Below, in pieces: positions 12,204 to 63,631 of a stretch of 63,631 bases of DNA; the first letter of the stretch is position 1; every line of letters starts with the position of its first letter. The translations under genes were made by a program, and so were the position numbers. The stretch comes from Fidelibacterota bacterium (GTDB lineage: Bacteria > Fidelibacterota > Marinisomatia > Marinisomatales > TCS55): positions 1 to 63,631 of the forward strand of contig SCKN01000009.1 in NCBI GenBank assembly GCA_004124385.1, read 5' to 3'. The notes under the pieces were generated by a model. That model saw only the letters and a list, made by a program, of their open reading frames with translations, was not told the DNA's origin and searched no databases.

Positions 12204-13229
12204 TTATTTTACCTCCCACGTATCACCGGAATTCAATAAGTCCTGAATACTTCCGGTACCGCGCACATCAATAGCTTTGGCTATTTGTTTTGAAACCATA
12301 TCATCATAAACAGGCGCATCAATGTTGTATAAAACACCAATGGGATCCGGAAATTCAGGTTGATATGTAAAGTTGGCTAACATAGATGCAACAACGTAAT
12401 CTGATTCATTATGAACCATTATATCATCTGTAGAAAATTTTCCGTTTAATTCAACAATTGTTGGAGTATTCCCATCCATATGAATACCTTTGTTTTTTTC
12501 AGCTCCAAATAACATGGGCTGACCATTCTCCAGCCAAAGAACTTTATCTGCTTTACTTTCTTTATTAGTCATTGGAGCAAATGCGCCATCATTAAAAATA
12601 TTACAGTTTTGATAAATCTCCAAGAATGAAGTACCCTTATGTTTATATGATCGTTCAATCATCACTTGTAAATGTTTCGTTTCACGATCGATCGCTCGAG
12701 CTACAAATGTGGCATCTGCGCCTAATGCTAATGTGAGGGGGTTAAAAGGTCTATCCAATGAACCTAAAGGAGAAGATTTTGTTACCTTTCCGATTTCAGA
12801 TGTCGGTGAATACTGACCTTTGGTTAGTCCATAAATACGATTATTAAATAAAAGTACATTAATATCTAAATTACGCCTTAACAGATGAATGGTGTGGTTT
12901 CCACCAATTGAAAGTCCATCACCGTCACCCGTTACCACCCAAACAGATAATTCCGGATTGGCAATTTTTACGCCTGATGCAATAGCAGGGGCACGACCAT
13001 GAATCGTATGGAAACCATAAGTATTCATATAATATGGGAAACGACTGGAACAACCAATTCCGGAAATGAAAACCACATTTTCCTTATCCATTCCCAAATC
13101 TGGAAATAATTTTTGAGTCTGAGCTAAAATAGCATAATCACCACAACCAGGACACCAGCGAACTGCTTGATCCGATGTAAAATCCATCTTTGTATATTTA
13201 TTTTTTTGCACTGTCTTTGATTTAGCCAT
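12204..13229 (-). CDS. korB: 2-oxoacid:ferredoxin oxidoreductase, beta subunit
   Basis: A 341-residue subunit carrying thiamine diphosphate and a [4Fe-4S] cluster; with KorA it oxidatively decarboxylates 2-oxoglutarate (or a related 2-oxoacid) to the acyl-CoA and reduced ferredoxin, or runs in reverse. Visible features are [12 protein letters not shown] near residue 26, GIGCSSR, and the TPP motif [12 protein letters not shown]...[11 protein letters not shown]. It starts 2 bp after korA ends and ends 4 bp before fumC. The neighbourhood supports 2-oxoglutarate as substrate but does not prove it. Confidence 0.92.
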
Positions 13230-58342: not shown

Positions 58343-58954
58343 CTATAATTGTTTTCGAAATATAATCAGTTTTTCACGACCCTTTCTAGGGCCAATGGAT
58401 AATTCAGGAAATTCTTCCAACTCAATTTTCCATCCCAATTTAAAAATGGATTTTACTTCATCAATTGTTGTTCCCCATGGCGGTCCACCATCTTCTTCTG
58501 CTTTATCTAAAGGAAACCATAAACCAATCAGCTTCCCACCGATTTTAAGCATATGCTTCACTATAGATTCATATTCTTTACGGCGTCCCGGATTGATGGC
58601 GCAAAAAAACGTTTGTTCTATAACATAGTCGAAAATGTTAATGTATTCAGATGTTAACGAAAATATGTCACTTTGGATTATTTGAATGTTAACATCGTGT
58701 TCTTTTGCCAGTTTTTCAAGTGCGTTAACTGCTGACGGTGCAAAATCTATGGCAGTCACTGCAAACCCTTTCTGGGCAAACAGGATAGCATCATATCCCT
58801 TACCGCAACCAATGATACACAATTCCCCCGGGGACATCGAATGGGCCATGGATTCAAATATGGGCGTAGGACCACCCAAGTCCCATCCGGCATCGTCTTC
58901 TAAATAAATATCTTCCCAGAATTGGGAATTGTCTTCTTTATATATCAATTTCAC
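58343..58954 (-). CDS. SAM-dependent methyltransferase (TPMT-like)
   Basis: A 203-residue class I methyltransferase resembling the thiopurine/thiol methyltransferase family: [53 protein letters not shown], and [15 protein letters not shown]. Such enzymes in bacteria methylate thiols, halides or metalloids (tellurite, selenite). It starts at a GTG inside the end of metH (17-bp overlap), so it is read from the metH transcript under the same SAM-responsive leader. Confidence 0.82.
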
Positions 58955-62487: not shown

Positions 62488-62517
62488 TTAAAAAAACCCG
62501 ATGCTAAAGTCGGGGTT
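62488..62517 (-). terminator. Intrinsic terminator in the metH leader
   Basis: On the minus strand AACCCCGA, an 8-base loop, TCGGGTT and a run of seven T form a terminator that ends 17 bp before the metH ATG and starts only 3 bp after the riboswitch-like core. Being upstream of the coding region, it must be an attenuator rather than the end of another gene. Confidence 0.85.
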
Positions 62518-62520
62518 AAT

Positions 62521-62577
62521 GGCCGTTTTAGCACTATTCTTTTACGTCGCAGCAATCGGGAGCAAATCACGACGGTG
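62521..62577 (-). promoter_or_regulatory. SAM-II/SAM-V-type riboswitch aptamer
   Basis: Read on the minus strand: CGTCG, then TGATTT, a CCCGATTG loop, the closing CGACG, a linker TAAAAGAATAGT, and GCTAAAACGG. The order of stem, UGAUUU, CCG-containing loop, second stem strand and GCUAAAA.GG is that of the SAM-II fold, and CCG can pair with CGG as the pseudoknot. Followed at once by a terminator and metH, this fits transcriptional shut-off by S-adenosylmethionine. SAM-V shares the same core, so the class is not settled. Confidence 0.8.
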
Positions 62578-62793
62578 TTATTTTACACAATAAATCTAAC
62601 ATTTTTCAAGAAAAGGGTTAATAGATAATTCACTTGCGGTATTTTACTAAAACTAGTAATTTTAGCATTGGTTAGAAAGATAATGAAGGTTAATTAACAA
62701 AATTTTTACACGGATTTTTTTGAAACAAATTCAAGATTTTACACATTTTTTCCCTCCTTCAACTCTTCCAACCTGACATAACAGTATAAAATC

Positions 62794-62865: not shown

Positions 62866-63631
62866 ATGAAAAAAGAAATATATATAAATGAAAGCATGGG
62901 CGAAACGCGCATTGCGATTCTCGAAGATACTCAGTTAGTTGAAGTATATATAGAAAAGCAAGAGAAACAACGCATGGTTGGTAATATTTATAAAGGTAAA
63001 GTGGAAAACGTTTTACCGGGGATGCAGGCTGCCTTTGTGGATATTGGATTTGATCTAAATGCATTTTTACCTTTTTCTGAAATTGAAAATAGTGATTATC
63101 TCGTTGATATAGATGAAGATGAAAAAGGTAATTCATCTCGCAATCACCGCAAGAACCGTGACAATATATCTGTAGATCTACATACAGGGCAGGATATCTA
63201 TGTACAGATAATTAAAGAGCCCTTTGCAGGGAAAGGCCCAAGAGTAACAACTGAAGTGGCTCTTCCCGGTAGATTACTCGTATTGGTCCCGAATACCAAT
63301 TATATAGGAATTTCCAAAAAGGTATGGGATAAATATGAGCGTCGTCGTTTAAAGAAAATCATTAGTTCGATAAAACACAAAGGGTTTGGTGTTATTGTAC
63401 GTACGGTAGCGGAAGGAACAAGTGAGGATTTACTTAAAAATGACTATGATCAATTGAAATCATCGTGGGATCGTTTACAGGGGAAAGCTGAAAAGACACA
63501 AGCGCCAACAATAGTCTATGAGGACCTTGAAACTGCATCTTCAGTCATCCGAGATTTATTGACTTCTGACGTAGAAAAAATAGTCATCGATTCTAAAAAA
63601 TTGTTTCGTAAAACATCTCGTTACTTAGAAG
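62866..63631 (+). CDS. Ribonuclease E/G family protein (3' end outside window)
   Basis: The first 255 codons of an endoribonuclease of the RNase E/G family, open to the window edge. The N-terminal block MKKEIYINESMGETRIAILED is followed by the S1 RNA-binding domain (NIYKGKVENVLPGMQAAFVDIGFDLNAFLP, about 40-125, with a charged insert DIDEDEKGNSSRNHRKNRD) and the RNase H-like part (VTTEVALPGRLLVLVPN, IGISKK). The catalytic DNase I-like domain lies beyond the window, so RNase E and RNase G cannot be told apart. ATG at 62866 after AGGTACAGG. Confidence 0.92.
   Translation, partial: MKKEIYINESMGETRIAILEDTQLVEVYIEKQEKQRMVGNIYKGKVENVLPGMQAAFVDIGFDLNAFLPFSEIENSDYLVDIDEDEKGNSSRNHRKNRDNISVDLHTGQDIYVQIIKEPFAGKGPRVTTEVALPGRLLVLVPNTNYIGISKKVWDKYERRRLKKIISSIKHKGFGVIVRTVAEGTSEDLLKNDYDQLKSSWDRLQGKAEKTQAPTIVYEDLETASSVIRDLLTSDVEKIVIDSKKLFRKTSRYLE

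Follow-up and report, generated by a model that had tools for sequence, protein, structure and literature searches.

A predicted SAM-II riboswitch with a terminator and candidate antiterminator before metH in an order of uncultured marine bacteria

Introduction

Most targets reported for SAM-II riboswitches are methionine genes of Proteobacteria, homocysteine-forming ones among them (metY, metA, metX, metZ and bhmT). These RNAs bind SAM, are often followed by terminators and occur in Proteobacteria and Bacteroidetes (PMC1273637, PMC2258182), and the RNA has been noted to begin at the aptamer (Corbino 2005, PMC1273637). Across about 200 proteobacterial genomes surveyed, metY, hom, metA, metX, metC and metW were the targets of SAM_alpha, and metH was absent from them (Leyn 2014, PMC4239095). 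Tandem SAM-II arrangements, partly of mixed design, have been described with 44 examples (PMC9481103).

Here we describe an RNA element in the metH leader of a Neomarinimicrobiota genome (2.09 Mb, 11 contigs). The stretch analysed, hereafter the window, comprises the 63,631 nucleotides of contig SCKN01000009.1. An earlier note, made from the letters of the window alone, had proposed that a SAM-II-like riboswitch and a terminator control metH and a coupled methyltransferase gene.

Results

When the whole window was scanned against all 4227 Rfam families, the RF00521 model (named SAM_alpha in Rfam) matched over its full length, positions 1-79, at 47.6 bits (E 1.3e-7), and it was the sole match besides tRNA. 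The score is well over the gathering cut-off of 36 bits, which bears out the proposal of a SAM-II-like riboswitch. The UGAUUU, UUGC and GCUAAA elements are all found in the aptamer (Table 1), and its L1 CCG is complementary to the 3' CGG; these CC/GG positions are near-invariant in metH leaders and leave little covariation available. As for the location, the earlier note had placed a pseudoknot pattern 50-106 bp before metH. The elements do lie on the minus strand near the positions it gave, but the aptamer match extends from about 36 to about 112 nt upstream of the metH ATG (62471). The folding energy of the leader is ordinary (z -1.18), and it is therefore the covariance model, together with conservation, that supports the assignment. 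A chance match can be rejected given the E-value and the order-wide conservation described below. Judged by its sequence, the element is thus assigned to a known riboswitch class, SAM-II, before a methionine synthase gene.

Table 1. Positions of the features discussed (window coordinates unless a locus is named)
Feature	Position	Strand	Basis
SAM-II (RF00521) aptamer	62507..62583	-	covariance-model match, 47.6 bits vs gathering 36
P1 stem	CGTCG(TG) 62574-62568 with (TG)CGACG 62551-62545	-	sequence
UGAUUU (TGATTT) loop element of aptamer		-	sequence
L1 CCG	62559-62557	-	sequence
GCUAAA (GCTAAA), SAM-contacting	62532-62527	-	sequence
Pseudoknot strand CGG	62525-62523	-	sequence
Predicted sigma-70 type promoter	62580..62609	-	-35 TTGAAA 62609-62604, 18 nt spacer, -10 TAAAAT 62585-62580
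Intrinsic terminator	62490..62514	-	CCCGA 62514-62510, UCGGG 62501-62497, U7 62496-62490
Terminator loop CUUUAGCA	62509-62502	-	DNA form CCCGA-CTTTAGCA-TCGGG-T7
Antiterminator, SAM-free fold	62501..62534	-	predicted fold
metH, cobalamin-dependent methionine synthase, 1177 aa	58938..62471	-	TIGR02082 1759.6 bits, NF007024 2025.9 bits
TPMT-like SAM-dependent methyltransferase	58343..58954	-	PF05724 2.5e-25
Betaproteobacterial SAM-II before metH (Methyloversatilis)	L099:3813-3891		above curated cut-off
Betaproteobacterial SAM-II before metH (Methyloversatilis)	L104:3811-3889		above curated cut-off
Betaproteobacterial SAM-II before metH (MAG)	L053:1359-1437		above curated cut-off

The aptamer is flanked by a predicted promoter and by a terminator. 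The promoter-like pair ends at 62580, so that the start site is expected at the first P1 bases, at about 62574. On the other side, the clear intrinsic terminator announced by the earlier note was confirmed as a CCCGA/UCGGG hairpin followed by a U7 tail. In the minimum free energy fold predicted for the SAM-free leader (-20.5 kcal/mol), GUGCUAAA (62534-62527) pairs with UUUAGCAU (62508-62501), and CGG pairs with the CCG at 62513-62511. This antiterminator, which takes up the terminator's loop and 5' arm, lies 1.4 kcal/mol below the state with a forced terminator. As it uses the GCUAAA-containing and pseudoknot strands, it would compete with the ligand-bound aptamer for the same nucleotides.

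We then considered the distribution of the element. Of 61 relatives, 54 gave a match to RF00521, and 27 of these matches exceed the curated cut-off; at an equal E-value, the 14 control genomes gave none. Seven relatives gave no match: metH was not detected in five of them, in one the gene is cut at the contig end before the leader, and in the last, G019, a SAM-II leader is visible but was missed by the strict search filter. Every readable metH leader among the 61 relatives carries SAM-II. Over the phylum, the family was found in 105 of 245 genomes, mostly of the window's order and of two other families in its class, f16 and f19. The metH sequences closest to that of the window come from Candidatus Marinimicrobia/Neomarinimicrobiota MAGs, with 69-86% identity.

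About 97 related metH leaders have a common layout, in which a promoter is followed by an aptamer at the start of the RNA, a terminator and metH, whose start lies 13-74 nt past the aptamer match. The terminator occupies the corresponding position in 92 leaders, a set of clean leaders that leaves out G025, in which a terminator is visible, and G141, which is near a contig end. In these 92 leaders TANNNT peaks at -12/-11 from P1 (63 occurrences, against a background of about 5.6 per position) and TTG at -36 to -34 (58 occurrences). Peaks at a fixed spacing from P1 argue that the RNA begins at the aptamer.

The covariation that the earlier note had suggested looking for in metH leaders is present at the fifth P1 pair, which is paired in 91 of the 92 leaders with five pair types (82 or fewer in shuffles), but the first four P1 pairs hardly vary. 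At the positions immediately below P1, the 92 leaders show no covariation. Conservation of the GCTAAAA and TGATTT elements, to which the same note had tied its proposal, was observed: GCUAAA is in all clean leaders, and the GAUUU position varies slightly, reading GUUUU, CAUUU or GCUUU in some.

The pairing between the terminator hairpin and the GCUAAA strand is also found in relatives. At least six contiguous pairs can form in 79% of the 92 leaders, versus 21% after shuffling, and at least seven in 52% versus 8%; the terminator shuffles preserved the stem while loop and stem columns were shuffled. When nascent RNA without the 3' arm of the terminator was folded, the antiterminator appeared in 74 of 92 leaders (80%), versus 16% with shuffled terminators, and about one fifth of the leaders have no clear antiterminator in the nearest-neighbour fold. 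A comparison of ON and OFF energies, in which the pseudoknot is ignored, gave an antiterminator in 75 of 92 leaders, with a mean energy 2.9 kcal/mol higher than that of the terminator state. Swapping terminators among leaders made the pairing weaker (z -6.4). With one leader per family the signal of the swap was weak (mean z -1.5, range -3.4 to 0.3), which indicates that the overall signal is partly due to shared ancestry. The complementarity that underlies the antiterminator is above chance.

The identification of the downstream gene as metH is upheld by its TIGR02082 score (Table 1). Divergent from it, at 62866-63630 of the plus strand, a gene cut by the window end resembles, by eye, the start of the ribonuclease G/E family. 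The start of the TPMT-like gene overlaps the end of metH by 17 nt, and the two genes are probably co-transcribed. L037 and L039 also have the two genes side by side, and in L038 a distance of about 1.2 kb separates them; elsewhere among the relatives, the place of the TPMT-like gene after metH is taken by metF-metK-ahcY or by different genes. The coupling of the methyltransferase to metH put forward in the earlier note is therefore apparent in the overlap, but the link is conserved only in part among relatives, and we rejected tight metH-TPMT coupling as a general design.

When SAM-II positions were compared with metK positions in relatives, at least 22 genomes, from families f2, f7, f9, f12, f16 and f19, proved to have metK a short distance downstream of the SAM-II-metH unit and in the same orientation. 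At the eight loci that were read through (L257-L264), ahcY comes after metK, and metF or a metF-like gene lies between metH and metK; gene identities were confirmed at two of these loci, with metF there just under the curated cut-off. The metH-metF-metK-ahcY set is a complete activated methyl (SAM) cycle. In the window's genome, metK and ahcY are found together on another contig (C5:201956-204570), and no known riboswitch precedes them. We lean towards the view that SAM-II was ancestral in the window's class, where it headed a single metH-metF-metK-ahcY operon. This operon would later have been broken up in the window's lineage, with metK-ahcY relocated without a riboswitch and the switch kept at metH, while the terminator loop that captures the aptamer strand would have been kept throughout. 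If so, a single SAM-sensing terminator would have set the enzymes of synthesis, use and recycling together.

Further SAM-II aptamers, frequently arranged in tandem, are located on islands with phage-like genes in the window's genome and in several relatives. In one such pair (L006:3399-3572, or G000:C5:245898-246071), the first aptamer (C5:245898-245974) has its own terminator and is followed by the second (C5:246013-246071), past which a hairpin would occlude the ribosome-binding site of a small gene (130 aa; phrog_27831, function unknown). Similar tandem pairs are present in G002, G167, G176 and G231, and apparently related copies in G004 and G235. The pseudoknot of the island aptamers, read by eye, is flipped (AGG/CCU). 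Two strict patterns of the tandem island aptamers matched nothing in viral contigs, and no SAM-II was found near the viral homologues of the island gene. The phage-like setting and genes are the unusual part of these tandem islands.

Other side observations concern single aptamers and repeats. At L220:9285-13738 (G134:C25), a predicted operon with a single SAM-II aptamer before it comprises an AAA+ ATPase gene, two genes with no confirmed Pfam family, one of which resembles phrog_1314, and a gene for a divergent SAM synthetase (PF02773/PF00438/PF02772, phrog_1569), with HNH nuclease genes alongside; a synthetase 58% identical to that of G134 is found on G037:C55. A 168-nt direct repeat with a SAM-II-like aptamer and a terminator occurs at L006:3346-3513 and 12619-12786 (93% identity, 9273 bases apart), and its second copy precedes a pair of genes for a Phd-family antitoxin and a YafQ/RelE-like toxin. 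Finally, L006:12500-19122 and L223:1966-8588 (G153:C40, a MAG of another order) are 99.3% identical over 6.6 kb, which reflects either a recent transfer or a misbinned contig.

Discussion

We have high confidence in the overall reading of the metH leader as a SAM-II riboswitch with a promoter at P1 and a SAM-dependent antiterminator/terminator switch. Transcription would begin at or beside P1, so that the aptamer is made first. Without SAM, the GUGCUAAA-A-CGG strand would pair with CCG-AC-UUUAGCAU, which belongs to the 5' arm and loop of the terminator made next, and this antiterminator would block the terminator and let RNA polymerase continue into metH. With SAM, the same strand would be locked in the pseudoknot and triplex of the aptamer; the CCCGA/UCGGG hairpin and its U7 tail would then form, and transcription would end before metH. 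Transcription is expected to be OFF when SAM is high, and the sensor very probably stops metH transcription when SAM suffices. From the features described above we infer that the aptamer binds SAM, in which direction it switches and that transcription terminates in the cell. The SAM-off logic advanced in the earlier note gains from the terminator being real and from its loop, which appears able to capture the SAM-contacting strand and so provides a concrete candidate antiterminator.

A SAM-II aptamer might instead act mainly on translation or mRNA stability, with the terminator serving as a constitutive attenuator, as has been reported for metA of Sinorhizobium. In S. meliloti, SAM control was predicted for translation but not for the terminator past the metA aptamer (PMC9373788). 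In the window, however, about 50 nt separate the 3' strand of the aptamer from the start codon, a Shine-Dalgarno sequence is not seen there, and the terminator loop shows specific complementarity to the SAM-contacting strand, which makes this explanation improbable. Even less probable is a SAM-II-derived aptamer with a changed ligand such as SAH, an idea suggested by the presence of ahcY in the operon of relatives and by the SAH riboswitches that precede metH or SAM-cycle operons elsewhere, as seen in L080, L084 and L101. The UGAUUU, UUGC and GCUAAA elements are nevertheless retained in the window and in nearly all relatives. A switch that turns metH off is in keeping with SAM as the ligand, whereas sensors of SAH are expected to activate their genes.

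The reading to which we give the least credence is that the element belongs to SAM-V or to another pseudoknot class. SAM-V, which the earlier note had considered alongside SAM-II, has a closely similar pseudoknot and a nearly identical binding site (PMC6061858). Yet a lenient Rfam scan of the leader (E up to 1) gave RF00521 at 47.6 bits and the SAM-II long loop family RF01726 at 21.4 bits, under its gathering cut-off of 44, and no SAM-V match, and the suggestion of SAM-V is accordingly dropped. Furthermore, the expression platform here is a terminator, whereas that of SAM-V is translational.

The proposed SAM-II terminator switch resembles most closely the alphaproteobacterial SAM-II systems (PMC1273637), with which it shares the aptamer, a promoter just before P1, a terminator between the pseudoknot and the gene and a target in the methionine cycle. 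It differs from them in its lineage, Neomarinimicrobiota, and in its target, metH, or metH-metF-metK-ahcY in relatives; no SAM-II was found at the ten alphaproteobacterial metH loci scanned. Among the other metH loci that we fetched, one of Bacteroidetes has SAM-I, and those of Betaproteobacteria include three with an SAH riboswitch and three others with SAM-II. The latter are similar to the window's element in that they are above the cut-off and have a putative terminator, but their leader extends about 100 nt past the aptamer, the terminator sequence is different and their occurrence is occasional rather than order-wide. These three loci led us to reject the idea that SAM-II at metH is unique to the phylum. 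A SAM-II-like core was also found by pattern in Undibacterium (L113). The earlier note had expected occurrence in this lineage and on metH to be notable: the element is near-universal in the order, but metH as a target is shared with some Betaproteobacteria.

The SAH riboswitch RF01057 (PMC4239095; L080, L084, L101) likewise places metH and related SAM-cycle genes under RNA control, but with another aptamer, another ligand and an expected opposite logic. As for the tandem SAM-II/SAM-V of Pelagibacter and tandem SAM-II (PMC9481103), they have in common with the window's element the aptamer class and their occurrence in marine bacteria; the metH leader of the window differs by its single aptamer, the tandem SAM-II being located elsewhere in the genome.

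Our survey of titles and abstracts, which takes in little of the subscription literature so that a prior report is possible, revealed no riboswitch work on Marinimicrobia/SAR406. The present observations extend SAM-II to a major uncultured marine phylum and point to a way in which these bacteria could sense SAM sufficiency. The set of about 97 natural leaders, with their compact terminators and candidate antiterminators, offers a test set for the coupling of a minimal pseudoknot aptamer to termination. In many relatives, one SAM sensor heading a complete SAM cycle represents a distinct regulon design. Compared with the described systems, the class and the mechanism are known, while the lineage and the target operon look new to the searchable literature, as does the near-universal use of SAM-II before metH within an order, many of whose members carry the entire SAM cycle downstream of it.
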